Of a DNA stretch of 64,000 nt, positions 25,701-44,718 are shown piece by piece; the stretch's first letter is position 1, and the number at the start of each line of letters is the position of its first letter. The stretch is taken from positions 2,857,501-2,921,500 of the forward strand of contig WAEK01000004.1 in the NCBI GenBank assembly GCA_011634665.1. Reading direction: 5' to 3'. Under the pieces are notes generated by a model that saw only the letters and a list, made by a program, of their open reading frames with translations, was not told the DNA's origin and ran no database searches. This stretch comes from Mortierella sp. BCC40632 (lineage: Eukaryota; Mortierellomycota; Mortierellomycetes; Mortierellales; Mortierellaceae). A program made the translations under genes and the position numbers.

Positions 25701-25772
25701 GCAGGATTAGCTCAGCGGCAGAGCAGCCGACTGCAGATCGGCAGGTCTCCGGTTCAAATCCGGAATTCTGCT
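25701..25772 (+). tRNA. tRNA-Cys (GCA), second copy
   Basis: Same cloverleaf as at 19507-19578, with two substitutions: one in the D-loop (GCGGTA to GCGGCA) and one in the T-loop (TTCAAAC to TTCAAAT). Anticodon GCA, discriminator T, no intron; an eight-T terminator follows at about 25781. It lies 68 bp upstream of the target duplication of transposon element 1. The surrounding DNA is unrelated to that of copy 1, so the pair is not a recent tandem duplication. Confidence 0.95.
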
Positions 25773-25839
25773 CTTTTGATTTTTTTTGTAAATTTTGTCC
25801 TCGGTCTGAATGTCGACCGAGTTGCCAGAGGATGCATGG

Positions 25840-25849
25840 CGATCGGCAC
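25840..25849 (+). repeat. 10-bp target site duplication, left, of element 1
   Basis: CGATCGGCAC, repeated exactly at 33511-33520 on the other side of the element. A 10-bp duplication fits the 8-11 bp range of Mutator-like transposons. Confidence 0.9.
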
Positions 25850-25974
25850 GGACAAAGCTAAACTTCGGGACTCCCGAACGTTAGTTATCGTTCGGGACTG
25901 TCATTTTGCCACTTAAAATTCGGGACCCACAACCTCTTAAAATTCGGGATTGCGGTCGCTTAAAATTCGGGCTG
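25850..25974 (+). repeat. Element 1 left TIR
   Basis: About 125 bp, inverted copy of 33387-33510 with very few differences. It contains a small inverted pair, CCCGAACG/CGTTCGGG, around TTAGTTAT, and three spaced copies of TTAAAATTCGGG. The motif continues just inside the TIR (about 25981-26009). Spaced motifs of this kind may be transposase binding sites (inference). Confidence 0.92.
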
Positions 25975-26317
25975 CCACGTCATAAAATTCGGGATTGTAA
26001 ACTTCGGGAGCAATTTACATCTTTCGTGTCTACGTGTTCTTGCTTTCGTTATTTTTTTTTTTTTTACGCGGGTTTCCTGCGATGCTCTGGCTGTCAGTGC
26101 GATGTTGTGCACTCCCAGGGGGTGGTGCAGGTGCAGGTCCCAGGTAACGATTATGGGCTCTCAAAAAAAAAAGTAACGGACAAAACAAACAAACAAAAAC
26201 AAAAAATAAATAAATAAAAAAAAAAAAAAAAAAAAAGATCATCAATCTTTTGACCTACCACAACCACCCGCCCTGTCACATCCACCCGCCTAGCCACAAC
26301 CACTTCCAAAAAAAAAG

Positions 26318-29300
26318 ATGACCGCTATCGAGATCAACGAGTCTGCCCCTGTTAGGGGCCTATGACTACCAGAAGCTGTATGGCATGTCAGCAAAGATCT
26401 TCTATTCCAAGAAGTGGGCTCCTGGTCGACAGTCGTTCCAAGTGGCTCTGCTTGATTCAACCACTGTCGATCCTGCCGACGTTATGACAGACACGGCGAT
26501 AAAGGATGCACCCACCATCCCGGACAACCTCGCAGTCAACAAGGCCTACATGCTACTCGGGGAAACGCAGAACAGAGCGCACCTCAAGTTCGCTTGCTTT
26601 GGTACTGTCGATGTCGCTGGGCTTGCAGCGTTACAACGCGCCAATCATGCTCTGGACACCATCGAAGAAATGCAAGCCCTGATTGCTTGGCTCAAGAACA
26701 ACCAAGAGAACCCTAGAACTGGCAAATTTTGTCGTCAGCTTTTGGAATTAATCCCCAAAAAAAACCCAATGTCGTTCAGGTTCACTTCGTTTTACAAGCA
26801 TTCCAAGAGCCTCACGATGCACCAAGTTTCATTTTTCCGCCCAGGTGTGTGGCTCGGAGACGAGCAGATCGATACCATCCTCCACACCCTGGAAAAAAAG
26901 CACGAGGGTACAAGCAAGTCCAAGTTCCTCATTCTGCCGCTAGAACTAGTACGAGCCCATGTCGACGCTATTGAGTGCAAGAGATCTGTAACCGTTGCCT
27001 GGGGAAGAAGATCGCCGCAAGGTTATGCTCGACTTGCAAGACTATGCGGATGCCAACCCGGGCTGTAGTGCCAAGGCGTTCACAGTTCTAAACACTGTTA
27101 ACCATTGGGCCGTTTTCGGTTTTGACCTTGCGCTCAAGAGACTTCTTTTCGGTGATTCATTGGACCGTGGACGCCTCCGCCGTGCGCGCCCAAGCTGGCT
27201 CGATGCTGCAAGACACTTGCTTCAATCCTGCTGCATTGGAGATCGACGCATCCGCTCCGAAGAGTGGAATTTTGAACCGGTTAGATTCCCAGTCTCGCAA
27301 CAAACCGATAGCAGCTCTTGCGGCATTATAGCGCTTAATGCTATTGAGCACTACGTGCAACCGTCAGTAGAGCGATGGACACAAAAAGCGAAGCGACTTC
27401 CATCGACTGAAGTACTTAATGTACGCAACATCAGTCTACCGCCCAGTAAGTTTTTGCTAGCAACCATTCACAAATTCATCCCCCTATGTCTGCAAAAAAT
27501 AATAAAAAAAAAAAAAAAGTCTCCATACGCCAGATGCTGACACAAAATGGATTCTGTAGGCTACTTTCATCAAAAGTACCCCCAGGGAAAAGTCACGCCC
27601 AAGAATAAGGACTCGGTCACCGAGGAGTCTCATGAAAAAAAGAAGAACTTGTCGAGAAGAGCAAAGTTAAAGGGGGAAAAATTAAACACTGGAGAAGAGG
27701 CCGCCGAAGAAGAACGCCAAGAGGTGCGTGAGGATGAACTCAGCACTTCCGAAAAGTCGCTTGAAAAGGAGGAAAGAATAGCCAAGAGTGATAAAGCAAG
27801 CGCTGTAGAGGAGACCATCGAAGAGGAACGTCAAGAGACGAATGACGATCGATCAAATCTGACTCGGAGTATTCCGAGTCAGAACATGGCAACACAGAGA
27901 CGCATGATACTCGCGAAGGTAGGCACTGTTTTTTTTTTTTTAATTCGCGAGAGAAAGCTCAGGGCCAATGATCGACAGGACAACAGAGCATGTTAGTCTT
28001 AGTTCAAAGCTTCTTACCTTCAACTGATCTCTTCCACAAAATAGGACGGAATAAATGGTGACGAGGAGTATCCGTGGATAAACGATCAGTTCGTTGACAT
28101 TGACCATGCTCTTAAAGTCATTGGTGAATGGGCACTCAAGCGAGGCAACATACTTCGCAAAGGGAGCTCTAAGAGGTCTTTAAATTACAGTATGTCGACT
28201 TCTGGTACTCGCTGCGGGGTGTGTGGATCAATTGCCGTGGACTAATGCAACCTCTTGCTCCCCTTCTCTCCAGGGCAACTTGAATGTTCTAGGGCAGGGA
28301 AATGTGCTCCTGCGAAGGCTATCGACCCCAGAAAGCGACGCGACAGAGGATCCGAACGATGTGGTTGCAAGTTTATGATCCAGCTGGTTCACGAAGGCTC
28401 GTTCACAGGGCCACTCTCTGTTGACAAGGTCAGGACTCACCCCTGACGCCAGGCCAGAGGATGATGGCCATTGCCATCCTTCGGATCGACAAGCAAACGA
28501 TCACAGCCGACAGGCACGGGCACTGAACGATGACCACAAAGATGAGATTCGGCGAAATGCAACTAACAAAGCAGGCATGGCTGCAACCATGAATGCTCTC
28601 AAAAAGAACTTTTCCTGACAAAGTTTTCGATCGCAAAAAGGGTTCAATACGTGTACAGAAATGCTTGTGATGAGATATTGGATCAGGTTCGAACTCAAGC
28701 TGGGCTCAACGAGGCTCAAGCCGTCCTTGAACTGTTACTCGCAAAGCGGCGGCAAGATGGTGCGTGGTATGTCGCATGGGATCATGATAACGAGAACCGA
28801 CTAACCCGGCTCTTCTGGATGAGTCCTTCACAGAGACTATTGTACCGAAGGTATGTGTTAGCAGTGTATCAGTACCGGGTTCTCATCGAACATTCGACAC
28901 CGTGCTAGAGCCATGTAAAAATTTTCGAATCGAATATTCGACGAGAAACAATTATTTCAGTACCAATAGAGCATTTTACATTTTGCAAAGACGGAATCTA
29001 ATACGTTCATAATTCATCACACATACACACACTCAAGATACTACGATGTTGTTTGGAATGACAGCACCTTCAATTCAAACCGGTTCAGGTTCTACCTTAA
29101 CGCTACCGTCGTCGTTGACTGTGATGGCAAAACCCGCCTAACAGCTGTTGCTTTAATCCAGCAAGAAACGACTGAGAGCTATACTTGGATCCTCGAACAC
29201 CTCATTATTGCAGGCAATAACCAACGCCCAACGGTTATCATGGTCGACGAAGCTAGAGCTATGGAAGCCGCCATTTTGTCAGAGTTGCCCGATACTACTC

Positions 29301-31026
29301 TCATCAATTGCCTCTGGCATATTGAAGAGAATCTCAAGAAACATTGTCCAAGGGCTCGGCGACCAGAAGTGATGAAGATGTTCAGGAGAGCGCTAGCAAG
29401 TATTACTCCTGACGAGTTTCAAGGTGCATGGGACCTTTTGAAGAACCTGGCTGGAAGCAGTGGCCAACTTAAGGATCACCTCAAGAGGCTTCTCGAGAGA
29501 CGCAAGAACTGGGCACGCGCTTTTGTGGGTTACCACTTTACAGCCGGCGCCAAGACTACACAGAGGGTGGAGAAGATGCACGACCTCGTGAAAAAAGACC
29601 TTGATACTAGATCCTCATTAGACCAGTGTCTTGCTGCGGCTGTCGAACGTGAACACAGTGAGTTCCTCAGGCGTGAGACGCTCCTGTACAAAAGGAGTAT
29701 TATCCCAAGGCTACACTCCAAACACGCTGCTGAAGAATTTAAGGCAGTAGTTGATGAGAACTTTGAGTTCCTCGGAGATTTTGCCTGCTTCTCAATGATG
29801 GACGAGATCGCACTGTCCTACTTCTATGATGCGCGAGTTACTGATCTTGAAAGTCTTGAGGTAACGATTGGACATTTAATCTCAAAATCAAAAATGAGTA
29901 CCATTCTGGAGTCTAAAAGTCTAACTTTTTTTTATTTTTTTATTTTTTATTTTTTTAAAAAAAAAAGGATCGTCCAGTTGAGCTAGAGGAGCACAAGAAA
30001 GGTAGTACTGACAGTGAAATCACTGGGAACAGCGACAATGATGACAACAGTCTTGACAGCAGCGACAACGATGACAACAGTCTTGACAGCAGAGACAACG
30101 ATAACAGCAGTCTTGACAGCAGCGACAATGATGAGAGCAGCCTTTACAACAACGACAATGATGGCAGCAGTCTTAAAAGCAACGGCAGTGATGACGGCAG
30201 TCTTGACACCAGCGGCAAGAACAAAGACGATGGAGGCGCCAACTGCAACAAGAATAACGATTGCGAGAGCGATGAGGAAGATCATGGAGCATGTGACAAG
30301 TCCTCTCAACAGCTCCGTGAGCATGCACAGAGGGTTATCCTAGCTACTCTAGGCAGAGATAATGTCACGTCTGCCTATCATGTTGAGTGGCGCAAGAAAA
30401 GTCGACAGCAGCTCCTCTTCCTTTTGAAAGATGGGAGCTACTTCTGTTGCTGTCTGCGCCTTCAGAAGGTTGGGATTGTCTGTCGCCACTTTTTCAAGGT
30501 CATGAGAGAGACTCCTGAGGCGAGGTACCATGTCAGTCTTCTTCCTCAGAGGTGGTTTAAGGAGGATATGCAGAGTGACTCGATCGACCACCTCAGAGAC
30601 CGCTCGTTTATCGGTTATGACGACGAGCAAGGCGATAGAGAGGATGCTGGGGAACCAGGCGCCAACTTTATGCAATGTCTGGAAAATATTTCGCCGACAA
30701 AGATCCAGGATATCTCAATGAGAAACCTGGAGCAAGTCAAGGATGAAAGCAGGCGCCATTTATTGAAGCGCCAGGCCAACGCATTCATAGACGGAATAGA
30801 CACGGTGTCTGCGGGTGATTCTGAGATGGTCTCCGGGTGGATTTCTGGGTTGGAAGACAAGTACGATGCACACAAGCGCGGTGTCGTGCCTGTGAAAGAC
30901 CCAAAAATTGCTACACCCAAAGTAGGAGGTCGGCCACGCTCTAAGAGACTTAAGTCAGTGTATGAGGTCCAGAGCGAACGGGCAGCCAGAAAAAATAGAA
31001 GAGATAGTCCTGATCAAGAAGCTTAA
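26318..31026 (+). pseudogene. Composite Ulp1-protease / MULE-transposase gene of element 1
   Basis: Exons, all with GT/AG ends and matching phase: 26318-27445, 27560-27918, 28045-28189, 28274-28850, 29038-29860 and 29968-31026. Exon 1 encodes a Ulp1 (C48) fold with the full triad in view: NHWAVFGFDL (His), FGDSL (Asp) and QQTDSSSCGIIALNAIEHY (Gln, Cys). Exon 2 is an acidic Glu-rich linker. Exons 3-4 hold a FAR1-like part (YPWINDQFVDIDHALKVI, RCGCKFMIQLV). Exons 4-5 carry the MULE core (RLFWMSPSQRLLYRR, YYDVVWNDSTFNSNRF, TVIMVDEARAMEAAILSELP, NCLWHIEENL, GYHFTAGAKTTQRVEK). Exon 6 has a 30-bp coding repeat and a SWIM-type finger, YFCCCLRLQKVGIVCRHFF. Frame breaks lie near 26353, 26985, 28432 and 28612, so no intact protein is made as sequenced. 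Desumoylation by the first domain is inferred from the triad. Confidence 0.85.
30031..30210 (+). repeat. 30-bp coding minisatellite in the MULE-SWIM linker
   Basis: Six imperfect 30-bp units encode SDNDDNSLDS-like decapeptides (Asp/Asn/Ser-rich) between the MULE core and the SWIM finger. Being a multiple of three, the repeat keeps the frame open and can vary in length without breaking the protein. It is absent from element 2. Confidence 0.9.
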
Positions 31027-31055
31027 GTCCTGTTCTTTGTCCTGCCCTTGCCCTC

Positions 31056-31278
31056 TGTTGTGGATCACAACATTTTTCTTGGCTAAGTCGATAAATAGGA
31101 ACCAAAATAGAGAGCCAGATGAGACGTTTATAGGACGTCTGCAGCGAGAGCTGCAGACAGGACCATTTTTATTCCCCTGGCGGGCGAAGAAGGGCCAGTA
31201 TAAATACTGGCCCTAGCCCTTGAATAAACTACACACCAATCTCACCGACTTCTCTGACCCTACCCTCAAAATATATCA
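31056..31278 (+). mobile_element. Solo LTR, copy 2 (223 bp), with 5-bp TSD
   Basis: TGTTGTGGATCACAACA at the start and ATATATCA at the end, flanked on both sides by CCCTC (31051-31055 and 31279-31283). That is a clean 5-bp target duplication of the Ty3- or Ty1-type integrase class. Inside are the 9-bp hairpin at 31137-31158, TATAAATA at 31199-31206 and AATAAA at 31223-31228. No internal retrotransposon part remains, so it arose by LTR-LTR recombination. It landed 29 bp downstream of the stop codon of the Ulp1-MULE gene, inside element 1, so it is younger than that insertion or at least than that copy of the element. Confidence 0.92.
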
Positions 31279-31391
31279 CCCTCAATCAAAGACACGGCTA
31301 GTCTTGTTAATCCACATAATTCTCTCTCTCTCTTGTCGAAGATAACTTTAATAAAAGAACTTATTGTCTCGTAACGTATCAGGTACCACTA

Positions 31392-31394
<3 letters not shown>

Positions 31395-31447
<53 letters not shown>
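31395..31447 (+). repeat. 53-nt poly(T) run
   Basis: Uninterrupted T run between the solo LTR and the minisatellite of element 1. Confidence 0.95.
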
Positions 31448-31522
31448 CGATGATGGGTCCAGCTTCCACGCTGCTTCACTCTAGACACGCACGGGCCGCC
31501 CTTCCCAGACCTTTACGTTCTT

Positions 31523-32040
31523 GGCGCATTCAATGCTTCAATGCGGCCTTGTTCTTTCCGCATTCAATGCTTCAATGCGGCCTTGTTCTTTCCGCATTCA
31601 ATGCTTCAATGCGGCCTTGTTCTTTCCGCATTCAATGCTTCAATGCGGCCTTGTTCTTTCCGCATTCAATGCTTCAATGCGGCCTTGTTCTTTCCGCATT
31701 CAATGCGACTTTGTGCTTCACGCATTCAATGCTTCAATGCGGCCTTGTTCTTTTCCGCATTCAATGCTTCAATGCGACCCTTGCTCCTCCCGTATTCAAT
31801 GTCTCAATGCGACCCATGCCCCTATTCAATGTGGTTTTTATGCTTCCCGCATTCAATGTCTCAATGCGACCCATGCCCCTATTCAATGTGGTTTTATGCT
31901 TCCCGCATTCAATGCCTCAATGTGGCTTTTGTGCTTCCCGTATTCAATGTCTCAATGCGAGGTTGCCCCCTATTCAATGCTTCAATGTGGTTTTGTTCTT
32001 CCCGCACTCAATGCCTCAATACAGCACATACTCCTCCCAT
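31523..32040 (+). repeat. 34-bp minisatellite upstream of the element 1 accessory gene
   Basis: The unit contains ATTCAATGCTTCAATGCGG followed by CCTTGTTCTTTCCGC. The first five or so units are near-identical; later ones diverge (CTCAATGCGACCC, TTCAATGTGG) up to about 32040. It ends some 160 bp before the accessory start codon. Element 2 has a different minisatellite in the same place, so the position rather than the sequence is conserved. Confidence 0.92.
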
Positions 32041-32200
32041 CTCATCAGTCTTTCTTAAGTCGAAGGCTTAAATACAAGATATTCAGCTCCTTGGTTCACT
32101 ACACACACACACTCACTCACTCACATTCTCTCTTTTTTCACACACACTCTCCCCAACTTATCTCTCGCCCTTCCTCTACTTCTCTTTTCTCTCTCAAAAT

Positions 32201-33087
32201 ATGCCAAAGGTCTCCCAGTGCTCCTTTCATAAATGTGCAAAAAAAATCTAAATGATGATAACAGGGAGAACTTTTTGTACTTCTGAGGAATCTCATTGGA
32301 GAGCATGCCACACCAATGAACCAGCCAAGTTCCCTTGTCCCTTTACGAATAAGACAGTTGAAATCCATCGAAATTCGGAGAAAGACTACAAGTTCACCTG
32401 CGTGTGCGAAAAATCATTTATCCTTAACGCAGGGTCTGTAAGGCGTCACTATGAATCTTGTACAGTAGCCAAACGGCTGGCTCTCCAGGCTGCTTCAACA
32501 GTTCCAGATACACAGGCTGCTCTTGCAACCCCAGAAACACAGGTTGCACCAGCAGCGGCCCAGCCTCACCAAGCATCCAGCGAACTTCCAAGCCCATCTC
32601 AGGCTCAAGATAAGAGTCCTTCCCGAGAGACAAGTCCTGCAGCGATATCGTCACCAGGGACCATTGTTTTCCGGGATGGTATTCTTGACTGCTTCCTTAA
32701 TAAATGCTGAGAATGAGAATAACTCAATTATTGCACTGGAAGGTAGATACTAACAATAATCTACTTTAGGTGTTACGGAAACTTTAGATGATGTTCTGTG
32801 GTATGTCCGCCGAATGGACGAAAGACAAGAGCGAATAGAGGACTACCAGTTGTATTTGGGGCGTACTTTGGAACAATTAGTTGGATTTGTGAAAGGGAAC
32901 CCAGCAGGCGCAAGTCCACGGACGCCTTGTGAGTTAACCATTTCGTCCATCATAGTGCAATCAGGATGAGTGTTGACCATTAGGCTAATGTGCTACTTTC
33001 TAGTAAGTCTCGTTCATAATTATAGGCGTCCTACACCATATCCGGCCCCACCGAAGGCAAGCGGTAGTGAAACAACAAGAAGATAGG
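32201..33087 (+). pseudogene. Element 1 accessory gene: Cys/His zinc-type plus coiled coil
   Basis: It starts MPKVSQCSFHKCAKK after a CT-rich leader with CACTCACTCACTCAC, then breaks frame at an A8 run (about 32240) and continues FPCPFTNKTVEI, YKFTCVCEKSFI, SVRRHYESCTVAK. The C-x-C...H-x3-C arrangement suggests a zinc-binding fold. A Ser/Pro/Gln-rich linker follows. After an intron (donor in CGGGATG|GTATTC, acceptor CTACTTTAG) comes a helical, probably coiled-coil part (LDDVLWYVRRMDERQERIED). A third exon follows ATTATAG at about 33026; its end is uncertain because it runs to a poly(A) tract. The gene is the counterpart of 40187-41172 in element 2, which is intact. Function unknown. Confidence 0.6.
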
Positions 33088-33386
33088 GAACAGCTGAGAT
33101 ATTTAAACAAGTGCAAAAAAAAAAAAAAAAAAAAAAAAAAAACAACAACAACAACAACACTGTGAAGAATAAACCAAAAGAGAAGACTAAAAAGCCATCA
33201 ACCGATGGGTTTAGAAGCGAAAGATAGGCTAGGAGGTTGGAGAGACGCAGGTTAAAAAAACTAGCAACCCATTGATGGACTCTGTTAGGCGAGGCGAGCC
33301 ACAGGAGGAGCTGAGAAAGGTATTAGTGGTGCGAGTTACCGACCCTCGATCCCGAAGATTAAGGTTCCCGAATTTTAAATTTTGGC

Positions 33387-33510
33387 CAGCCCGAATTTTA
33401 AGCGACCGCAATCCCGAATTTTAAGAGGTTGTGGGTCCCGAATTTTAAGTGGCAAATGACAGTCCCGAACGATAACTAACGTTCGGGAGTCCCGAAGTTT
33501 AGCTTTATCC
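33387..33510 (-). repeat. Element 1 right TIR
   Basis: Inverted copy of 25850-25974. It contains the same three AATTTTAA/CCCGAA-type motifs and the CCCGAACG...CGTTCGGG pair, and ends TTTAGCTTTATCC. The motif also continues inward (about 33355-33380). Confidence 0.92.
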
Positions 33511-33520
33511 CGATCGGCAC
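33511..33520 (+). repeat. 10-bp target site duplication, right, of element 1
   Basis: CGATCGGCAC, an exact match to 25840-25849. Confidence 0.9.
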
Positions 33521-33608
33521 TGTTGAAGAGTTGAGTTGAGTTGGTGAGTTGGTGAGTTGAGTTGAAGAACACTAGCGGGGGACAAAGGGGGCGAATCTAT
33601 TTTTTTTT

Positions 33609-33927
33609 GGATGAAGATATTCTCACATATATGTGAGCGGCTTATTCTCAGTCATATGTGAGAATAGCTCTCAAACTCATTTTTTTTCTTAATCTCACAT
33701 ATGTGTGAGACGCTTATTCTCACACATATCTCCTGAAAAAGGCCTCCAGCTTACTCTCACACATATCTCAACGTTCTGCTCTCACATTTATCTACAGTCC
33801 CAGCTTTTCTTTCTTCCTTTTTTTACAGGCCCCGTTAGGGGTTTTATTCATTTGTGCGCACCCGTCCCATGTTTTCCAGACGTGGCTATCTAGTCCTCAA
33901 TCCACCAAGGAAAAGGAAAAAAAAGTA
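33609..33927 (+). repeat. Element 2 left TIR
   Basis: Inverted copy of 42669-42990. The outer 200 bp contains many TCTCACATATGTGAG-like palindromes (at about 33621, 33652, 33690, 33719, 33757). The inner 100 bp is a LINE tail (T run, then ACAGGCCCCGTTAGGGG and onward). LINE-related sequence goes on without the partner copy to about 34045. Confidence 0.9.
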
Positions 33928-34231
33928 AGAGAATAGGTGGAAGGCGATCCAGAGAAGAGGAAAAAGACCAGGGTACAATGAGCACCCGCAGAGGGGCAAG
34001 TCAAAGGCAGGGACTACAACTAGGGCAGAGGTCCCAGCTTTTCAGCCACTCAATACGACTGTTATGTCATCGGTCTATGATGCCGATTTGACACATCGTC
34101 AATTGTGCTTCCCTTTTTTCTTACTCTTTTCGCCACTACTCAAAATCCTAGCACTCCTCGGTCGTCCTTTGGTCTTCACTCTTCTTGGATCGCCGACGGT
34201 AGGAGTCTCACCATCGTTTTGCACAGCTGCT

Positions 34232-34850
34232 TCACTTTCCATATCCTTTTCCAGAGATCCCTGAATTTCCTCCATCTTGCTCAAAATCTTCACATGCATA
34301 AGTGGATCGTTGCTCGAAAAGACCTGCGATCTTCTTTCCGAGTCCTGTTATTTCTGCGTGCCGTCTCTTCCTAGATTGGGTCTCCTTGTGATAAGCGACA
34401 GATTTTTTGTCGGAGGAGAACAGGTCAGAAACACTGGTCATGAAAGAATCCGAGGGATACCCCATTCTGGTTGACTTGTGGTGCCGAGAAGCGGCCTGGA
34501 AAGACTTGCGTCCAATCCTCTCACTAAGATCGGGGATGTCTTGGATGGATTCCTTATACCAGCGGCGGTGCACTAAACTGATGTGATATCGGCACTCTGG
34601 CTCTTTCCTCATGACGCAGAAAAAATGGCGGCAAACGACTCCCAAATTTTGGAGGAGTAGACAAGTGCAGAAGTACGAGTGATCGGTCAGAAGTATGACG
34701 TATTCCTTCTGTTCGCAGCCCAACGTGTCCTTTGCCCTGAAAACGAAACGCGTATCGTCTTGACCAATCCTAGAGATCAGAGAAACGAGAGTTGATATAC
34801 GCCCCGATTCATCCTATTACACGAGACGAGGCAATATTAATATCCTCTTC

Positions 34851-34891
<41 letters not shown>

Positions 34892-37800
34892 GTGTGTTGG
34901 ATAGGATACTTGCCGAGTCACTGTCTGGGGGGTAGAGCTCCAAGAGCTCCTGTAGACTCTTGAGACGCGCAGAAAACCCAAATGATGAGTCCATCTCCCG
35001 CCTCATTTTGGCCTTAGCAAACGAACCCAAAAGATCCTCATTGGATTGTAGTACTTGCTTGAACGCCTTTTCTGACATGGTCGGCTCTAAAGTCCTGGAA
35101 CTTGCCTCTCTTCTGGCTGCCTCACCTTCAGGACAGCTATTGAATTTTGCCTCAAAAAGTTCCTTCTCTATCTTCACCCCTGTAGCTTTAAGGACCCTTG
35201 TTAAAGAGGAACCACCATTGAGATTCAGCATTTTAAGAAGATGGTGCGACTTCTCTACTCGTTGAGTGGATTGCATCCCAGCTGTGAACTGAGTGCGCAC
35301 CCATGGCCAAGCCCATCGAAAACGGTTCGAATACAAACGATCAAGATAGTTGAGGACGATGGGGTTTTGTTGATATTTCTCGCACAGCTTCTGCCACTTG
35401 GCCTCGAATTCTCTGGAAATCAAAAGAGCGGGTGACATCTTGAAAGCGGGTGAGAATTCATCCCAATCTTTCCCAAGGGCTTTGAAAAGGCGTAGCCTAA
35501 TGTTCTTGTTTGCGTGCCACCGGCAATTGACTATAGTTGTATCAGGGAGAAAGGTTGTACTGACAATGTTCATTGCTGGATCTTTATCCAGCATGAGGGT
35601 CTTTGGGGGCTTATTTTCATTCAGCTCTAGCAGTTGCGAAAGGACCCATTCGTAATCTGAGGTCTCTTCGCCAGAGGTAAGGGCACAGGCTACCAGTCTT
35701 GTCCGAAAATTGTTGTCAACTACAACGAAGCAATGGAGCGGCATACCGAATCGATTGGTGGATGCAGTTGTGTCGTGGACGACAACGTCATGATACCTCC
35801 TGTATAAATCCTGTTGCGCCGGGCACATCCAAAAGACAGCCTGGAGACGACCGGCCACAATCCTGTTCCTGGAGAGCCATTGGCCTGGGATTTCTCCAAG
35901 CAAGTTGAACAACTGGGCAGCATCAGAAATGGTGTTAGACGATGCACGTTGTTTCGAGATATAGTTGGCTATTTTTTTCTGGTCGAACAAGTACTTGGAT
36001 TTCGTAAAAGAGGCGCTTCGGGTTATCTGAAGCATCTCTATCGTTTTACCAGTTCCCCAACCCATTTCTGCAGCCTGTCTGATTAAATTGAGGTCATACT
36101 CTGTAAGAGGCTCAAATTCTGGACGAGGTTTTCCAAGGGCGTGGTTGTGCAAAACAGAGATGCTGGAAATACGCCATCGTGGCTTGATAGACTTTGGGCT
36201 GTTAAGGTATACAGCGTATTTGCAGCCACAGCGGACTGAAATACTTCCTGGCCGCTGCTTGGATGGATCAAAACCTTTTTTGAGGTGTGTGTGCCCTGGC
36301 GAGTGCAAACGATTAACCCTTGGAAAAAAAAAAAAAAAAAAAAAAAAGGCTCCTAAGTCTCCCGTTGTGCCAACGCCCTCTTTGATATCGACATAACACA
36401 AAGTTGACAACAACTCACTTACCAGTCGGATAAGTAGCATTTTTCGAAGAAGAGTTGGCCCTCGTTCGGAAACCATTGCGGCAGGCATAGTCGAGCATCA
36501 TGGACTTGGCCTCCTCGAAATCCGAGAATTGATCATCGACTGCGGGGCTCCATCCAACAGCATCCACGTGCTCTCCTAGAAAAGGAAAGCGTACAAATTT
36601 AGCACAACTCGTAGGCTAGTCTCAAGTGCAACAACTGCTAGATTCAATAGCGCACGCACCATAGCTCTGACACTCCGTGTTGTCCCTGTTGTCATGACCA
36701 CTTGCAGATGAGGCCTCGCCTCTGAGGCCTTCTAGATCTTCTGATGTATCCGACTCATTGGGGCAGAGAGAAACAGCGTCGTCCTCATCACTTTCGTTCT
36801 TTGTGGAACTATTGTCACTCTCGCTGCTGCTTGAAGATGAGGTACAACTCTCAGGACAATCAGGGCTGTTCGATCTATCGCCGTCGGACTTTTTCTTGCC
36901 AATTGTTCGGATACCCTCGTCTGGGCCTCTAGTCTTTTCCAGCTCTTCGACACTTGGCTCCTTTTCGCTCTCGTTAAGCTCCCTACTGCCAGTAGCAAAG
37001 CTTTTCGTGTCTACAATGATTTCTTCCAAACTCTCATAGTCGAAGTTGTCATCGGAGCTGGCCAAGTTGTTGTAATGATCAATGTAGTCGTCTGAATCCC
37101 TATCCACATCCGTGTAATCACTCTCGTTAGTTATAGGGCTCAGCTCTCTGCTTTTTGGATACTTTGCTTCTTTCTGGCCCTCGCAAAGAACTGTATTGGC
37201 TGACTTTCCTAAGTCCTTGAGATACTTCTTGAACTTCTTGTCCAAATTAATGACCTTCGGACTGTTCCCTTTCTCCTTCCAAAAGTGCTTTACGACATCG
37301 TCTTCCGTGACCTAAACGTAGATGGATACAACTTAGATACTGGAGTTCCTTTTATCTTCCTCTACCCTTTTGTGATGACCTGCCATTTTTAAAAAAAAAA
37401 AAAAACCGCCCTCTCACAGTGCTCGGTACCTTAGTGTAAGCGACTAGAAGACGTGTGTAGCGGATTCGACTCATTATGGGATTGGTGTATCTGACCCAGT
37501 CATACCCAGGAGTCACATCTTGCTCAATGGCCTGAAGAGCGAGGACACCACAGCTGAAGTCGTCATCCTGTGCTTGAACAGTGAATGCACTGTGTTCATT
37601 CATGGCTGCCAGCTTTTCTAGATCAACCTTAAACTCCCCTTTCGGATCCTCCTGTCGCCCCTCTAGTACTCTCAACAGCCAAGTCTTCAGATGACAAACT
37701 GTATCCTCGGGTGCTCTCTTGCTGAGTGAGTCACCGATTAAAACAGTGTACTGAACAAGGTCGAATACCATCACGCCCCAATGATTCCCGTAGTGCACTA

Positions 37801-38682
37801 CAGTGTAGACTTTCTCTGTGCGACTCCTTCGGATGTATTTTTTCGAAAGGTTTTCCGACACTATCGTATCCGAATCCTGGGCATCGAACAGGCATGAAAA
37901 CCCGCCTTCCTTGCTCTCCGTAAACAAGGTGGAAGAACAAAATAATGTAGTTTATCACATCGTCGTTCAACCACTCATTACCACAGAGGATGAAGAGGTC
38001 ACGCGCGGTCACTCCGTGATCTGGGGAGAAATGTTGGTTGGAAGGAGATAAGGCGTAGTTTTTCTTCATTCAACAGTCTGTTTTGAAGCCATTTAACAAA
38101 CTCTTTGATTTCATTGTTCAATGTCGATTTTGACCAAAGCCAGCGCATTGAGTTATTAAAATCATCAATGAACTTTCTTGTTGTAGCAACCTAATGAAAG
38201 CAGTTGAACAGATTACTTATTAGTTACAGTTCGGGCGTAGAGCATTGCTCCGCGTCTCAATAAAGAAAATTCAACACACACTCCTCCAACAAAACACGAG
38301 TCTGTAGTCCAGTAACATCTCATACCTGATTCAATACAGGGATGGAATCCAGATCAAACACGAGCTCATTGATGCCGTCGAACACCACCATAAAGTCTTC
38401 TCTGTTTTCTTTTTGATGACCTCGCCGTGTCGCATCCAATAGAATTTCAATTTTGGGGATGAATGGAAGCTTGATCACATCCTTGATGTCGCTCTTGAAA
38501 AATGATTTCCGCATAGTCTGCGATTCAGCTTCAACCAGTGTTCCCAGGCCGGTGTCTTTCAAAACGGGGATCAAATGACAGCAATTTCGCAGATCCTTAG
38601 CGGATTGGACTAGGAGCCAATTGGAGCCAAAGCGGAAGTCGTACTTTTTCTTGTTTGCTTGGTGGCGGGAGATTGAAAGCAT
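34232..38682 (-). pseudogene. Composite Ulp1-protease / MULE-transposase gene of element 2
   Basis: Minus-strand exons in phase: 38682-38326, 38190-37430, 37311-36660, 36575-36423, 36318 to about 34914, and 34723-34232. Exon 1 is a helical N-terminal part. Exon 2 is a Ulp1 domain: GNEWLNDDVINYIILFFHLVYG, HYGNHWGVMVFDL (His), IGDSL (Asp), QDDDFSCGVLALQAIEQ (Gln, Cys). Exon 3 is an acidic Ser/Asp/Glu linker. Exons 4-5 hold the FAR1-like part (DDQFSDFEEAKSMMLDYACR, RCGCKYAVYL, VLHNHALG). Exon 5 then carries the MULE core (VFWMCPAQQDLYRRYHDVVV, TLMLDKDPAMNIV, NCRWHANKNI, TQFTAGMQSTQRVEKSHHLL). The last exon is the SWIM finger, YFCTCLLLQNLGVVCRHFF. Frame breaks lie near 38058 (A5 on the coding strand), 37870 and 36278 (A6), so the copy is not intact as sequenced. 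A TATA box stands upstream of the start. Confidence 0.85.
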
Positions 38683-38740
38683 GATGGGTAGTTGCGTAGA
38701 GTGAATGGTGAATGAATATTTGCCGTAGCCGTGTTGAGTC

Positions 38741-38750
38741 CCTTTTTATA
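38741..38750 (-). promoter_or_regulatory. TATA box of the element 2 Ulp1-MULE gene
   Basis: TATAAAAAGG on the minus strand, about 60 nt before the start codon at 38682. Confidence 0.6.
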
Positions 38751-39054
38751 GTGTAATGCTAAGCTGCATGGTTGTGGTGCTTCACCTGACTCTTGCCCAA
38801 CACATGCGGTTCCCGGGTTGGTACGAGAAAGCCCGTTGAAAAACTGCTCTCACTTAGTGCTAGAGTCAGATTAGACGCGTCCGCTAAAAAAGTTTGATCT
38901 CTGCTCCTACACCTTGCTCGTTTGCCACTCTCGTTTCTGTTCATGATTTGCGAGGCCCCGATTCTCAACAAACCCAAGGTGAACATGGGTCACTCTAAAC
39001 TACCGTCCACCACAAAACTTTGCTTTGACTCAAAGACTATGCCAGTGAAGTACC

Positions 39055-39720
39055 AGAGAAGTTTATGGTTGCTCAGAGAAGTCTATGGTTGCTCAGAGAA
39101 GTCTATGGTTGCTCAGAGAAGTCTATGGTTGCTCAGAGAAGGGGAGGGTTGTTCAGAGAAGGGGAGGGTTGCTCAGAGAAGTATATGGTTGCTCAGAGAA
39201 GTCTATGGTTGCTCAGAGAAGGGAGGGTTGTTCAGAGAAGTCTATGGTTGCTCAGAGAAGGGGAGGGTTGTTCAGAGAAGTCTATGGTTGCTCAGAGAAG
39301 GGGAGGGTTGTTCAGAGAAGGGAGGGTTGCTCAGAGAAGTGTATAGTTGCTCAGAGAAGTATGTGGTTTTTCAGAGAAGTATATGGTTGCTCAGAGAAGT
39401 CTATGGTTGCTCAGAGAAGTATGTGGTTGTTCAGAGAAGTGTGTGGTTGTTCAGAGAAGTCTATGGTTGCTCAGAGAAGGGAGGGTTGTTCAGAGAGGGG
39501 GAGGGTTGTTCAGAGAAGGGGAGGGTTGCTCAGAGAAGTATAGTTTTGCTCAGAGAAGCATGTGGTTTTTCAGAGAGGGGGGAGGGTTGTTCAGAGAAGT
39601 CTATGGTTGTTCAGAGAAGGGAGGGTTGTTCAGAGAAGTCCATGGTTGCTCAGAGAAGGGAGGGTTGTTCAGAGAAGGAAGAAAGTTTTTTCAGAGAAGG
39701 AAACGAGATGTACAAAGAAG
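39055..39720 (+). repeat. 20-bp minisatellite between the two divergent genes of element 2
   Basis: Around 33 tandem units of the form GTTGCTCAGAGAAGTCTATG, with variants in which TCTATG is replaced by GGGGAGGG or TATGTG. A short related block (GTTGTTCAGAGAAGTACATG) continues at 39811-39915. All three frames are open over much of it, so the long ORFs here are artefacts of the repeat. It sits between the TATA box of the minus-strand gene and the CT-rich leader of the accessory gene. Confidence 0.95.
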
Positions 39721-40127
39721 TGGGCGCACAGCTTAGATAAAAGATGGCAAAAACAGAGAAGCGGGCAGCACAGCAAAGAGAAGGAAATGGGAAGTATGTG
39801 GTATTTAAGAAAAGTATGTGGCTTCTCAGAAAAGTACATGGTTGTTTAGAGAAGTACATGGTTGTTCAGAGAAGTACATGGTTGTTCAGAGAAGTACATG
39901 GTTGTTCAGAGAAGGGAGACAAGGAAACAGGATGTTCAAAGAAGGGGCTGGGGTGTTCATAGAGGAGTGGAACGAGAGACCAGCGTGAGAACCAAGATTT
40001 ATACAAGGAGGTAAGTTCAAGTGGTAGTCTCTCTCTTTCTCGCTTACTCTCTTTTCTCTTCTACACGCACTCACTCACACACATTCCCACTCACATACAC
40101 ACATATTCTCCCTCTCTCCCTCTCTCC

Positions 40128-40161
<34 letters not shown>

Positions 40162-40186
40162 TTTCACGCTTCTCTGCTCACCTCTT

Positions 40187-41172
40187 ATGCCAAAGCAGAC
40201 TCCGACTAAGTCAGAGAACTCTCTGGCAGCCAAGTCGCCCAGGAGCAGGGCGGTGAGGGACGATTCGGCAACAGCGGAAGAAGCGAAAAGAAAAAAGACC
40301 AACGAGGGGGTTGGTTGCACTTATTTCCAGTGTACTCAAGGACTCTTGAAGAAGCGGCGATCGCGGATTCTCTCTGCACAGGATGAAGATCACCTTTTGC
40401 GATACCACCAAGATGTGCCCCTCCGATTCCGCTGCAACAAAATAAACAAGGACATCATTATCACACGAGACCCCACCGCCGAGATGCAGTACCGCTGCCT
40501 ATGTATGACAACAATCAATTTGAGGTCATCAGTTAAACGACACTATGATAGCTGCGAGCTTGCACAGAAGGCGGCTGAAGAAATGACCAACAATCCTTCA
40601 ACATTTATTGCTTGTCAGCCATCATCATCGCTCGAAGTAGCGGATTCAGACATGACAGAGCATTTCAACCAAACAATGGCCACCTACTACGAAAAATTTA
40701 CCACCAAATTGTCTCAGCGAAGCGATAGGATTGAGCAACAACTCAGGGAGCACTTCATTGGCCATCGTGTCCTCATAGACGAGCTTTCAAGAGTCACAAA
40801 GCAGCTGGTGCAGGCAGAAGAGCGTCAATCCAAGAGACTAAGCGACTCTCTACACGTTAGAGAGAGACTGGATAGTCTTGACGATAGGTTGAGGGCGATC
40901 AATAACTATTTTGAAACCTCGACACCAGGTAATCTTACAGATCACTTTTTGCTGCCATTGCAAGCCATCTCCTCATGATATCTATTCTAATATGCCTGAT
41001 AGTACGAGGTTCTTCACCTTGGAGTCAAATAGATCCATTGTCTCCCGAGCCAGAAATGGGGATATTTGTCAAGTCTTCTGAAACTGGTGAGTTTAAAGCA
41101 CATGATTGGAAGTAAAGACCCTGTTTGTGACACTTTCTAACATGAAAAATAGGTGATGATGATTCATCCTAG
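40187..41172 (+). CDS. Element 2 accessory gene: Cys/His zinc-type plus coiled coil, 281 aa
   Basis: Exons 40187-40928, 41003-41086 and 41153-41172 join in phase. It starts MPKQTPTKSENSL after a leader of CACTCACTCACACACA and a long CT repeat. A basic N-terminus is followed by CTYFQCTQG, LRFRCNKINKDIII, QYRCLCMTTINLRSSVKRHY and DSCELAQK, a Cys-x-Cys...His-x3-4-Cys arrangement that could bind zinc. Residues about 155-245 form a long charged helix, probably a coiled coil (KLSQRSDRIEQQLREH, LDDRLRAINNYFE). The tail is acidic (GDDDSS). It is homologous to 32201-33087 of element 1. I know no named family; a DNA-binding or transposition-accessory role would be inference from its position. Confidence 0.75.
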
Positions 41173-41580
41173 ATACATCCCAGCTAGTAAATAAAAATGA
41201 GTTTCAGGAACCCGGTTGTAGACTTCCAATGCCGCAATAGGGATCTGTGCGCCAATCCCAATGTTTGAGCCGGCTCGAGTTTACAGAAGCAATCCTCTTT
41301 TTTGAACTCTTTTATCATTTTTAAGTGGTCTCCTATATCGTGTCACATGCACATGCTACCCTAGTCAAAAAGAAGTCAGTATAAAATGAATGATCTTTCG
41401 TTACGACTGAGAATAAGATCTCGCAGCTGTTGGATCTCTCGGACCTTTTGCCCCTAGTTGTAGACCCTGTCCTTGACTGCCCCCTGTGGGGTTCCTTTTG
41501 TACTCTATCCCCCCTCTTCTCTGCATTGTATTTTTGTAGCTATTTCGTTTCTGGGTCGCCTTCCACTTTTTCTCTTACCT

Positions 41581-42668
41581 TTTTTTTTTTTTTTTTTTTT
41601 ACAGGCCCTGTTGGGGGCTTTATTTGTCAGCGCGCGCCCGTCCCACGATCTGCAGACGTAGCCAACTAGTTCTCAAGACTAACCACAGAATAGAGAGAAG
41701 AAAGAAAAAGTGGAGGGCGACTCAGAAACGATATAGCTACTAAAAATACAAATGCAGAGAAGAGGGAAAAGACCAGAGTACAAAAGAGCACCCGCAGAGG
41801 GGGGCAAGTCAAGGGCAGGATCTATAACTAGGACAAAGGGTACGAGGGGTCCAGGAGCTGCGAGAGCGGCTCCTAATCAAGCAGGTCGACCTCAGCAACT
41901 TCAGCACGCCTGATGTCGGGCGGCTTCGGTCTTGCGCGGGAGCTGGAGGAGTATATTCCCCTGGCATGTCTAAGAAAGGACCATAGACAGGGGTGGGCCA
42001 CATCCGACCAAATGTCACTTCCTACTTGGACACCACAATGTACGGAGGGTGGTTCCAAGTCTCGTGCATCCGCTTGTAATTGGCGTCTGGTGTTGCTGCT
42101 GCTTTTGGATTCATTGATTGTTGTTTGTTATCCTTGAGTTTGGCTTGTTGGAGTGCTGTGTGTGCACGGAGCTTGAGGCTATTGACTGTGAGCCAGAGGA
42201 GATCATCCGCTGAGCCGTCTCTTGGGGTTGGCCCGGAAGTAGCTTGTGGATGGCGACAAAAGTCTTCCAAATGCCGTACAGGACCACTGAGTGTGTGTAC
42301 TGCGATGAGGGGCAGGCTTTTAGCTTCTGGCCATCCCAGCATGCAGTTGTCAGGCAGACTGTTGACGATCATGCCCAGGATGAGAGTGGCGATCCAAGAG
42401 CGGGCGGCCTTCTAGAGGGTCCACACTGCTCCGCAGTTGGCGAAGGAGTGTCGTGGATCCTCTATGCGGGGCTCCTGCCCGGGGTAGTCGATGAGACAGC
42501 GCTTGCACTTCTTATTGACGTCTTCGCTCCCACGTAGTTCTGGCTTTATCTGTTGAAAGACCTCTCTTTTTGGTGACCTAAGGAGGCGGTGTGTGCGATT
42601 GAACACTGTGTCCCACCACTTGTCAGGATAGGGGTCGTTGTTCTGCGCAGGAGACTTGAGCTCCAACC
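41581..42668 (-). mobile_element. LINE fragment, copy C, with poly(A) tail, inside element 2
   Basis: On the minus strand the coding part begins at the inner edge of the right TIR: DKWWDTVFNRTHRLLRSPKR, then a knuckle CKRCLIDYPGQEP...RHSFANC. After a frame change it continues WLTVNSLKLRAHTALQQAKL and ends with NHPPYIVVSK, followed by a 3' UTR with AATAAA (about 41621-41626) and a 22-nt poly(A) tail (T run about 41579-41600). The knuckle differs from that of LINE copies A and B, so this is a second LINE family. 5'-truncated, no RT domain visible. Confidence 0.75.
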
Positions 42669-42990
42669 TACTTTTTTTTTTCCTTCCCTTTGGTGGATTG
42701 AGGACTAGATAGCCACGTCTGGAAAACATGGGACGGTGTGCGCAAATGAATAAAACCCCTAACGGGGCCTGTAAAAAAAAGGAAGAAAAGAAAAGCTGGG
42801 ACTGTAGATAAATGTGAGAGCAGAACGTTGAGATATGTGTGAGAGTAAGCTGGAGGCCTTTTTCAGGAGATATGTGTGAGAATAAGCGTCTCACACATAT
42901 GTGAGATTAAGAAAAAAAAGAGTTTGAGAGTTATTCTCACATATGACTGAGAATAAGCCGCTCACATATAATGTGAGAATAGCTTTTTCC
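42669..42990 (-). repeat. Element 2 right TIR
   Basis: Inverted copy of 33609-33927, including the LINE tail (plus orientation here, ending GGGGCCTGTAAAAAAAA at about 42780) and the CTCACATATGTGAG palindromes. It ends AGCTTTTTCC. One notable difference is an extra base in the outermost palindrome. Confidence 0.9.
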
Positions 42991-43450: not shown

Positions 43451-43929
43451 ACAATATACGGACGACGTTAAGGGAGACGGAACCATGTAGGTATCCGCCT
43501 CCCTGTCACGCTGGTGAAACCTTAAGCTACTAGGTTGCCCATACCTTTCACCAACAGCCGCTCTCACCTCTCGCGCCACTGCTAATCTTTCATGAAGTTT
43601 AATTGACAACCTAGTTGTCAAATACCCAGCACGAATTTGACTGACAACCCGTTGAAAATTGGGTGGCAACCCTTGGATTGCCTCCGCATCCCATTCTTTT
43701 TTTTTTACTAAGTCTTCTTCTTTTAATGTTCTAGAGGTATCCCCGTCAGATGGATGGTGTGGTGGTTGCCAACGGCACCATATAGCGCGTACCTGGGGCA
43801 GCTACCAGCACCCGGCTCGGTGTCGCAAGAATGCCCCATCACTCATCCCAGTGATGCATACCTGTTCATATTCACAGGAGATAGTTCAACTTACTATGCC
43901 TCCAACATCAGTTAGAGATGCAATGGGGG

Positions 43930-44718
43930 ATCCCTGCGGTACGCAGGGCAAACTAGGCTAGTCCATGATGACGATACTATTCGCCAGGGGCCAGGGCTGA
44001 AGATGGGGAAGGAGGTGATTAACAATGGCTTCGTAAAACTGGGCTTGGTTGAAAGTCTTATCAATAATATGCCAGTCAATGAAACCGCGGCAGGAGAACA
44101 CTGCCATCGCAGAAAGCCTTTTTCCCTCGAGCAAAAGGAAGTGTCACAAAGGCTGGAGAGCCGATCGTCGACCACGCATGATCCCGCACGGCAGCACGCC
44201 CGTCTTTGCTCGTTTCGTCTACAAATATCAACTGCTCCCGATTCAGGTACCATGGTGACAGGCGTGCCTTGAAATCCTCGATTTCTTGAGGAAGAGCTTC
44301 GCGAGCACGCTTGGTAAGTACCTTCCTGCTCAACCTTAGGTCATGTCGAAGAGCGCGGCAAAGAGTACTCAGGGACAAATTCTTCAGGCCTGGGAACTTG
44401 TCGCGGAGTGCTTCTTGGAGCTCTTCAAGAAGGAAGCAGGGATGGCATTCGGCATACTGTCTCACATAGTCAATAACCCCATCAGGCCATCTTGACTTCC
44501 GTTCAGATACTATTCTATGCGCCACTGAACCAGTCTTGCTGAACATCACTATTTCAATCAGGAGCAAGTAGTCTTTGAATTGCTTTCTCTGTCTTGCCTG
44601 TCCATTGGAGCAGGCTCGACTCTGAAACAGACAGCAAGGCAGCCGTATCGGTTTTTGATAGCCCATGGAAGCTGTAAAGTATCACTGCTCGCAGTCGCAG
44701 GTCTTCAGAAATAGTCAT
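43930..44718 (-). pseudogene. IS630/Tc1-type DDE transposase, broken
   Basis: Minus strand. The start at 44718 gives MTISEDLRLRAVILYSFHGL, a helix-turn-helix N-terminus. After a frame change the body continues SRWPDGVIDYVRQYAECHP, ALRHDLRLSRKVLTKRARE and LIFVDETSKDGRA (first catalytic Asp). A second frame change at a five-base homopolymer (44119-44123) leads to DWHIIDKTFNQAQFYEAIV and NSIVIMD (second Asp), which is followed at once by a stop. The C-terminal acidic residue and the TIRs are not found. This is a relic of a family different from the MULE elements. Confidence 0.75.

Follow-up and report, generated by a model that had tools for sequence, protein, structure and literature searches.

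A Mutator-like element of Mortierella sp. BCC40632 with a probable Ulp1-led transposase gene and copies beside tRNA genes

In animals and fungi, the transposases of Zisupton and KDZ DNA transposons contain, or are accompanied by, a Ulp1-like domain. Among Mutator-like elements (MULEs), Ulp1-bearing members are known from plants, where passages of two sources present Ulp1 as a captured domain lying in either orientation (PMC2528002, PMC13317346), in melon and rice in that of the transposase (PMC2528002); a preliminary description of the locus treated here had likewise regarded the plant Ulp1 as cargo, in agreement with these passages. Fungal MULE groups, according to the available text of Dupeyron et al. 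2019 (PMC6446971), carry SWIM and in some groups FAR1 domains and have target-site duplications (TSDs) of 8-11 bp, one Mucorales group having a TSD of 10 bp. The stretch analyzed here, referred to as the window, comprises 64,000 nucleotides (C4:2857501-2921500) of the 49.9-Mb genome of the fungus Mortierella sp. BCC40632, and coordinates below are window positions unless prefixed by a contig. It contains element 1, which we consider likely to be a recently mobile two-gene MULE, composed of a single spliced Ulp1-linker-FAR1-MULE-SWIM gene and a zinc-finger-like gene, the fusion inserting beside genes transcribed by RNA polymerase III (Pol III). The ends and the TSDs are defined, the order and spacing of the Ulp1 and MULE parts are fixed, the catalytic residues are kept, and the insertions lie 49-101 bp downstream of tRNA genes.

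Element 1 is a complete MULE spanning positions 25850-33510 and bounded by terminal inverted repeats (TIRs), the left one on the forward strand at 25850 to ~25977 and the right one on the reverse strand at 33387-33510, with 98% identity across ~125 bp. The left TSD, CGATCGGCAC (25840-25849), is matched exactly by the right one, CGATCGGCAC (33511-33520), and these ends agree with the earlier account of a complete MULE with TIRs of ~125 bp and an exact 10-bp TSD. With the element-1 TIR as query, the genome returned 40 matches. Nine loci, the window copy and eight others, are complete (7.5-7.7 kb, one of them 14.6 kb owing to a nested insert), and all nine have matching TSDs, of 10 bp in eight and of 9 bp in one, each different from the others. 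Nine copies at different sites, each with a matching TSD of 9-10 bp, carry the status of complete element far beyond chance. Six further TIR pairs are short copies of 717-736 bp that consist of the two ends only and hold no genes, the TSD matching in five. Among ten loci with a single TIR match, two (L009 and L025) are also short copies, retaining both ends between matching 10-bp TSDs, and two (L012 and L032) are short copies with one end trimmed. The PF10551 DDE domain, the long TIRs and a TSD within the 8-11 bp range given for MULE groups in PMC6446971 identify element 1 as a MULE. From the comparison of its copies, it is judged to be a young transposon that has been recently mobile.

The predicted transposase gene lies on the forward strand. 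Its exon 1 (26318-27445) comprises an N-terminal region and the Ulp1 (C48) domain with its His, Asp, Gln and Cys, in a frame that is broken in the window copy and open in the copy L058 and in the majority sequence of the aligned copies. Directly 3' of the Ulp1 domain lies intron 1 (27446-27559; GTAAGT...CTGAC...TAG), found at a homologous position and phase in four families of elements; it is followed by exon 2 (27560-27918), an acidic and Lys-rich linker, and by intron 2 (27919-28044), recognized from its splice signals. The GT/AG joins proposed earlier are confirmed by the splice signals of these two introns. Exon 3 (28045-28189) would encode the first part of a FAR1-like domain, and exon 4 (28274-28850) its zinc-binding part (RCGCKF) together with the region preceding the DDE domain, both assigned by reading. 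Exon 5 (29038-29860) encodes the MULE domain, with a CxxH past the second Asp, and is matched by PF10551 at 29051-29332 (E 2.2e-19; 70.2 bits, cut-off 27.6). Exon 6 (29968-31026), assigned by reading with no Pfam match, would encode acidic repeats and a SWIM-type motif (CxC...CxH) and ends with the stop; when the copies are read jointly, the intron between the MULE domain and the SWIM-like part contains long A/T runs. The preliminary description had proposed FAR1, MULE and SWIM exons: the MULE part is borne out by Pfam, while the FAR1-type and SWIM-type parts are recognized by reading and have no Pfam match in element 1. The FAR1 and SWIM Pfam models returned no match in the scanned pieces of element 1 (family 1) and of family 3, and the FAR1 model gave a weak hit in element 2 (family 2), with 17.7 bits against a cut-off of 28.1.

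The intron following Ulp1 occurs at the same place, in phase 0, in families 1-4. The joins between Ulp1 and linker read SVYRP|ATFIK in family 1, VAYTK|VTEDD in family 2 (with a second possible donor four codons further), TNFYK|FKKPD in family 3 and LASQE|PLATD in family 4, and the intron measures 115 bases in family 1, 118-124 in family 2 (112 with the second donor), 69 in family 3 and 93 in family 4. Past the acceptor, families 1, 3 and 4 have 120, 209 and 172 open codons, respectively, and family 2 has 229 in its window copy and 193 in L071. The linker has its first in-frame ATG at codon 109 of the majority frame in family 1, at codon 160 in family 4 and at codon 186 in L071, and the family-2 copy of the window has none. 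Such a long open stretch devoid of a start makes translation from the Ulp1 exon the best explanation. The comparison of copies and families thus favors the proposal that a MULE transposase gene is led by Ulp1. We regard as real both the element and the Ulp1-led gene structure, which occur in several families of this genome and have relatives among other Mortierellaceae; a single spliced protein is, with good confidence, the likeliest product.

The Ulp1 core of element 1 exhibits the motifs NHW, GDS, QQ and SCG and matches PF02902 with 21.1 bits (cut-off 20.7). W, HW, GDS and SCG are common to all five aligned Ulp1 sequences, those of families 1-4 and of the protein P0002, while the Gln is identified by reading in all five; the His-Asp-Gln-Cys set noticed at the outset is therefore present, with H, D and C invariant. 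These residues are shared by sequences of low similarity, since families 2-4 and P0002 are 24-36% identical to the family-1 sequence. PF02902 matches three of the five at E<=1 (best 3.6e-5), and the Ulp1 profile finds the chains of SENP5, SENP2, SENP1 and yeast Ulp1 with E values of 5e-4 to 5e-3. The domain thus possesses the catalytic residues of C48 peptidases and is predicted to cleave SUMO. Relative to the diverged copy L061, dN/dS is 0.42 in the Ulp1 exon (347 codons kept, 27 dropped; Fisher p 2e-6 for constraint), 0.67 in the linker, 0.50 in the FAR1/DDE part and 0.70 in the second DDE part. These are probably upper values, because L061 is decayed. The Ulp1 exon is under purifying selection. 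The C11 copy differs from the majority by 7 changes in this exon, which is too close for an informative dN/dS. Across the 20 candidates of a genome-wide PF02902 search, nothing came up apart from the presumed host gene (C5:1349639-1350381) and the C25 copy, so the elements hold no recent copies of the host gene.

Twelve family-1 copies were aligned across their 5' 5.4 kb, the partial copies C11, C10 and C35 being excluded from the divergence counts because flanking sequence was aligned along with them. Over ~5.7 kb, the other nine (eight complete copies and the nested copy of C12) each carry 5-27 substitutions relative to the majority, but 33-104 indel bases. Homopolymers hold 350 of the 536 indel bases of these nine copies, and under half in C6 and in the nested C12 copy. 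The frame breaks fall at differing places in differing copies, the window copy included. This pattern looks like unpolished long-read error left in repeats, and the frame of the window copy is apparently broken by assembly error. In L058 a single frame, beginning with an ATG, remains open up to the 3' end of the Ulp1 exon, and a short deletion next to the active site leaves it in phase; the majority frame of the aligned family-1 copies is also open. As for the Ulp1 exon of the preliminary description, its catalytic core is seen, but it does not form one open frame in the window copy, which is broken by copy-specific indels; the frame becomes visible only when copies are compared.

The genome contains at least 35 PF10551 loci, to which a protein search adds few. 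Ulp1 lies 5' of the MULE domain, on the same strand, at 25 of these 35 loci, at 1.2-2.0 kb in 24 cases and at 8.6 kb, across a nested insert, in one. Chance juxtaposition of the two was rejected on account of this one order and spacing at 25 loci. In family 1, Ulp1 precedes MULE in all 12 copies holding a MULE region. Copies with TIRs and lacking Ulp1, if they were the rule, had been named beforehand as an argument against the fusion: in family 1 all 12 transposase copies have Ulp1 and the short copies are gene-less, while in family 2 ten copies have Ulp1 and 13 loci possess a Fanzor-like open reading frame (ORF) instead, which had not been foreseen. Eight Ulp1 matches have no MULE match within 10.5 kb, including the presumed host Ulp1 gene (C5:1349639) and family 4 (C5:1169678). 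The family-4 locus (L070, C5:1168500-1173500) displays an Ulp1 with a Cys-rich insert, the intron at the same place and a FAR1-like part. As an Ulp1-MULE, this family is not established, its Ulp1 and FAR1-like parts being assigned by comparison and reading with no MULE found adjoining. Elsewhere, the segment C4:2575593-2584445 has tRNA genes on both sides, a weak Ulp1 match and two matches to the zinc-finger gene, and possibly represents another family.

Nine of the ten MULE loci without Ulp1 belong to a form of family 2 designated 2b; the tenth, at C6:2618244-2618480, is a match below the cut-off and not of form 2b. Between window position ~37354 and the 3' end, form 2b shares 95-99% identity with family 2a, and the two differ before that position; this breakpoint falls inside the intron between Ulp1 and linker. 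Upstream, 821 bases 5' of one junction (L072) were read, which cover the C-terminal end of an ORF only. This end shows a CxxC, a second cysteine pair CxxxxC and RDVNAA, as in TnpB/Fanzor proteins; it scores 17.4 bits with PF07282, below the cut-off of 26.3, and its sole PDB match is a weak one with Parasitella Fanzor 1 (E 0.9). Relatives of the L072 piece stand directly before the shared sequence, on the same strand, at all 13 form-2b loci (e.g. C12:714053-717651), at a distance of <=8 bp at nine loci and of 27, 32, 127 and 149 bp at the other four. Simple 5' truncation was rejected for nine of the ten Ulp1-less loci because of the common junction inside the intron and the adjoining Fanzor-like ORF. 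Four of the 13 loci (C55, C54, C56 and a 321-bp stretch at C4:336573) are just 72-90% identical to 2a, indicating that the junction is old. The exchange of Ulp1 and a Fanzor-like ORF within one intron shows that modules are swapped at the front of a transposase gene. Genome-wide, 150 Fanzor-like pieces were scored, several per locus in places, and such pieces are therefore common beyond form 2b. A Fanzor-like ORF also lies ~3 kb from Ulp1 in both family-3 Ulp1-MULE copies (C14:312687-313109 and C25:194811-195233), and a shortened Fanzor-like remnant, two pieces of which match L072, is found outside element 2 at 43694-43962.

Two protein searches, the second of which scored the 7990 candidates sharing most words, yielded seven relatives (P0001-P0007), known as annotations rather than transcripts, and the closest protein relatives of the window are from Mortierellaceae. 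P0005 of Mortierella alpina (821 residues, partial) comprises, in one chain, the end of Ulp1 (SCG...RIRYLRLLTAHTK), the linker, FAR1 (41.9 bits) and a weak MULE (21.2 bits, below the cut-off of 27.6). Examination of other Mortierellomycotina, as had been advised, thus finds in this partial, annotated protein the Ulp1 end joined at the same junction to FAR1 and a weak MULE. In P0001 of Entomortierella chlamydospora and P0002 of Mortierella sp. AD094 (partial), Ulp1 and a FAR1-like part are joined, as judged by comparison and reading; the annotated P0001 model is devoid of the Cys region. P0007 is a plant FAR1-related protein.

The tRNA neighborhood of family 1 is very strong. ARAGORN predicts a tRNA-Cys (GCA) gene on the forward strand at 25701-25773, and element 1 starts 76 bp downstream of its 3' end. 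A tRNA gene is found at 55-101 bp from all nine complete copies (flanks L049-L057) and at 49-76 bp from six of the eight two-ended short copies (L062-L065, L067 and L009). Altogether, 15 of the 17 two-ended family-1 insertions lie 49-101 bp from a tRNA gene, always downstream of it, and either element end may face the tRNA gene. The neighbors include genes for 11 named tRNAs (Cys, Ala, Glu, Val, Ile, Ser, Thr, Pro, Met, Arg and Asn), one gene being identified by Rfam only. For L012 and L032, the short copies trimmed at one end, a tRNA gene lies ~55-75 bp from the end that survives, and the one-ended fragments L016, L021 and L068 have one at ~40-55 bp, bringing the loci with a neighboring tRNA gene to 20 of the 25 examined (C2:2145519 standing outside this count). 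A random site would fall within 105 bp of a tRNA gene, on the correct side, with a probability of ~0.003, even if all 1589 candidates in the genome were tRNA genes. In family 2a, five of ten copies have a tRNA gene at ~100-220 bp, distances for which 63 of the 1589 tRNA candidates were scored and element ends were estimated from the element of the window. By arithmetic, element 2 would lie ~160 bp from the same tRNA-Cys gene if element 1 were removed. Family-2a elements adjoin family-1 ends at four places, with some ends estimated (33511-33608, C7:408450-408596, C2:2365070-2365236 and C4:2840608-2840616); this adjacency perhaps reflects the same tRNA neighborhoods, or a liking of family 2 for T-runs. 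Neither L069 (family 3) nor L070 (family 4), where the ends of the elements are undefined, yielded a tRNA gene.

Element 2 (33609-42990, reverse strand) is a complete element of family 2a with TIRs of ~315 bp (33609-33924 and 42674-42990). It is flanked by T9, a duplication that lies within T-runs and is weak evidence alone. Its predicted Ulp1-linker-FAR1-MULE-SWIM gene occupies 34099-38682 on the reverse strand, with the intron after Ulp1 at 37429-37312, and its second gene, encoding a zinc-finger-like and coiled-coil-like protein, lies on the forward strand at 40187-40978, divergent from the transposase gene. The homologous zinc-finger-like second gene of element 1 is located at 32201-33000 on the forward strand, with approximate exon ends. 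This second gene occurs in families 1, 2 and 3 (E 4e-12 between elements 1 and 2, E 5e-11 between families 3 and 2, in single comparisons), its Pfam matches being below cut-off; it has the same direction as the transposase gene in element 1 and is divergent from it in families 2 and 3. Minisatellite-like arrays stand between or beside both genes, at 31500-32050 in element 1 and 39040-39960 in element 2, and their registers are shifted in alignments between copies. Further along, an unbroken ORF of 1327 codons (48075-52058) contains ~47-residue repeats and, unlike the transposon copies, has no frame breaks.

In the mechanism that we propose, the Ulp1, linker, FAR1, DDE and SWIM parts would be translated as one protein, the DDE domain would perform cut-and-paste between the TIRs, and the FAR1 and SWIM zinc domains would bind the element ends. 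A protein contact might bring the integration complex to the Pol III machinery at tRNA genes, where Ulp1 might strip SUMO from the transposase or from proteins at tRNA chromatin, and this removal could assist in binding, in targeting or in evading silencing. In yeast, Pol III is regulated by SUMO, according to the available text of PMC6128692. We put forward as a hypothesis that the protease contributes causally to targeting. A broader joint reading would have tRNA genes found by protein contact and not by sequence, the fused Ulp1 acting on SUMO-modified Pol III machinery with insertions ~50-100 bp downstream, and the 5' module being interchangeable, with a Fanzor-like RNA-guided nuclease taking the place of Ulp1 in form 2b and possibly spliced to the transposase; taken as a whole, we regard it as rather unlikely.

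Several observations speak against a single fused gene that inserts beside tRNA genes. All gene models combine splice consensus with a joint reading of several copies, single copies being frame-broken. Ulp1 is absent at ten of the 35 MULE loci and from four of the seven relatives (P0003, P0004, P0006 and P0007), P0006 giving no match in the Ulp1 comparison and the other three non-significant ones. A search with the full 1281-residue fusion query found nothing; Pfam is silent on P0001 and P0002, in neither of which a MULE was found, and on the pieces of family 4, where no MULE was found beside Ulp1. As to the insertion sites, no tRNA gene was present in the flanks read of the short copies L025 and L066, nor in those of the one-ended fragments L036/L058, L038/L059 and L060. 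Five of the ten family-2a copies have no tRNA gene near, among the 63 of 1589 candidates scored, and a family-1 end intervenes in two of the five that have one. The sequence could also hold two separate genes, an Ulp1 gene whose end lies within intron 1 and, further downstream, a MULE gene that has a promoter and start of its own. The unspliced family-1 Ulp1 frame does stop within intron 1, where an A-run includes an AATAAA, and family 1 could therefore give a short transcript of Ulp1 alone; in the linker of family 3 an in-frame ATG occurs at codon 53, and this family adds nothing to the argument from start-less linkers; and P0004 starts with a Met and without Ulp1, while P0003 and P0006 begin without a Met. 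Yet the check for a separate start, suggested in the preliminary description, finds no in-frame ATG in the first 100 open linker codons of families 1, 2 and 4, the phase-0 intron recurs at the same place in four families, the AATAAA is absent from the introns of families 2-4, and P0005 of M. alpina is annotated as a single chain. With these facts the two-gene arrangement appears improbable. The idea that Ulp1 is a host-gene fragment, captured and carried as passive cargo in the manner of Pack-MULEs, would accord with the frequent capture of gene fragments by MULEs and with the plant Ulp1 capture described in passages of PMC2528002 and PMC13317346. The catalytic residues and their order are, however, kept in four families at 24-36% identity, and this conservation, together with the dN/dS of 0.42, leads us to reject the cargo explanation; since the elements also hold no recent host-gene copies among the 20 candidates of the PF02902 search, it is scarcely credible.

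If a single spliced gene is accepted, its Ulp1 may still be unrelated to the tRNA targets and serve anti-silencing, in the manner of plant VANC/KIU, or self-processing. KIU-carrying Vandal MULEs hypomethylate their kin, according to the available part of a review (PMC13317346), and form 2b, which is devoid of Ulp1, was nonetheless amplified. Nothing direct stands against these roles, and the main text of the VANC paper (PMC5735166), as far as available, contains no occurrence of Ulp1 or KIU; we view them as a serious possibility, somewhat short of an even chance. The tRNA neighborhood itself might reflect the survival of harmless insertions instead of targeting, given that old insertions into genes would be purged by selection and the spacers beside tRNA genes would be safe. 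However, the family-1 copies are nearly identical and hence young, and 15 of the 17 two-ended insertions fall in the one window of 49-101 bp on one side, against the random-site probability of ~0.003, so survival alone seems very improbable as an explanation.

A SUMO-protease-led transposase combined with insertion beside tRNA genes would constitute an unusual example of targeted DNA transposition, and one that can be tested. Ulp1-type domains occur in several unrelated kinds of DNA transposons, and the apparent fusion in several families, the kept residues and the sharp tRNA target allow the part played by a SUMO protease in transposition to be tested directly. A DNA transposon inserted at a set distance from many tRNA genes would parallel the Ty/TRE retrotransposons and might provide a tool for safe-site integration.

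When compared with the Zisupton/KDZ transposons, the element described here differs by its transposase, which is a PF10551 MULE; the words protease, peptidase and SUMO are absent from the main text of PMC12730594, consulted for this comparison. Rice proteins with both Tnp2 and Ulp1 domains are mentioned in the available text of PMC2528002, so the fusion of Ulp1 to another type of transposase is on record, the Ulp1-bearing CACTA elements belonging to plants and having a Tnp2 (CACTA) transposase whereas the present one is a MULE of a fungus. Among the titles and abstract starts listed in the literature searches, none describes a fungal Ulp1-MULE fusion or a MULE neighboring tRNA genes. Ulp1, protease, peptidase, SUMO and tRNA do not occur in the available main text of PMC6446971, and the available parts of PMC7175516 and PMC12062965 add nothing further on Ulp1 or on MULEs at tRNA genes. 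The closest likeness is with the plant MULEs that also have an Ulp1-type protease domain, namely Kaonashi (KI-MULE, or KIU-carrying Vandal, of Arabidopsis) and those of melon, rice and grapevine. The melon and rice elements resemble the one described here in that they are TIR-MULEs with Ulp1 in the orientation of the transposase, according to passages of PMC2528002 and PMC13317346. In contrast, KI-MULE is described in PMC2528002 as devoid of TIRs and as having its Ulp reversed relative to mudrA, whereas here TIRs are present in all nine complete copies and Ulp1 lies on the same strand at all 25 loci. In the fungal elements Ulp1 occupies the 5' part of what appears to be the same gene, in several families; a plant gene may be fused as well. 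Regarding the Fanzor-like module, the available text of PMC3627910 reports Fanzor1 in MuDR-type elements of Rhizopus, Phycomyces and Mucor (Mucoromycota) with 9-bp TSDs; those elements have no MuDR transposase of their own, whereas in form 2b the Fanzor-like ORF directly precedes the MULE gene. As for the target, Dada elements are likewise DNA transposons tied to tRNA genes, but according to the passages available from PMC3706591 they insert at one fixed position within a tRNA or snRNA gene, with a TSD of 6-7 bp, whereas the insertions described here lie 49-101 bp outside the genes of 11 named tRNAs, with varied TSDs of 9-10 bp. Dictyostelium TRE3, reported in the available text of PMC5911963 to insert 40-150 bp downstream of tRNA genes, is a non-LTR retrotransposon with an unrelated enzyme, while the element of Mortierella is a DNA transposon.

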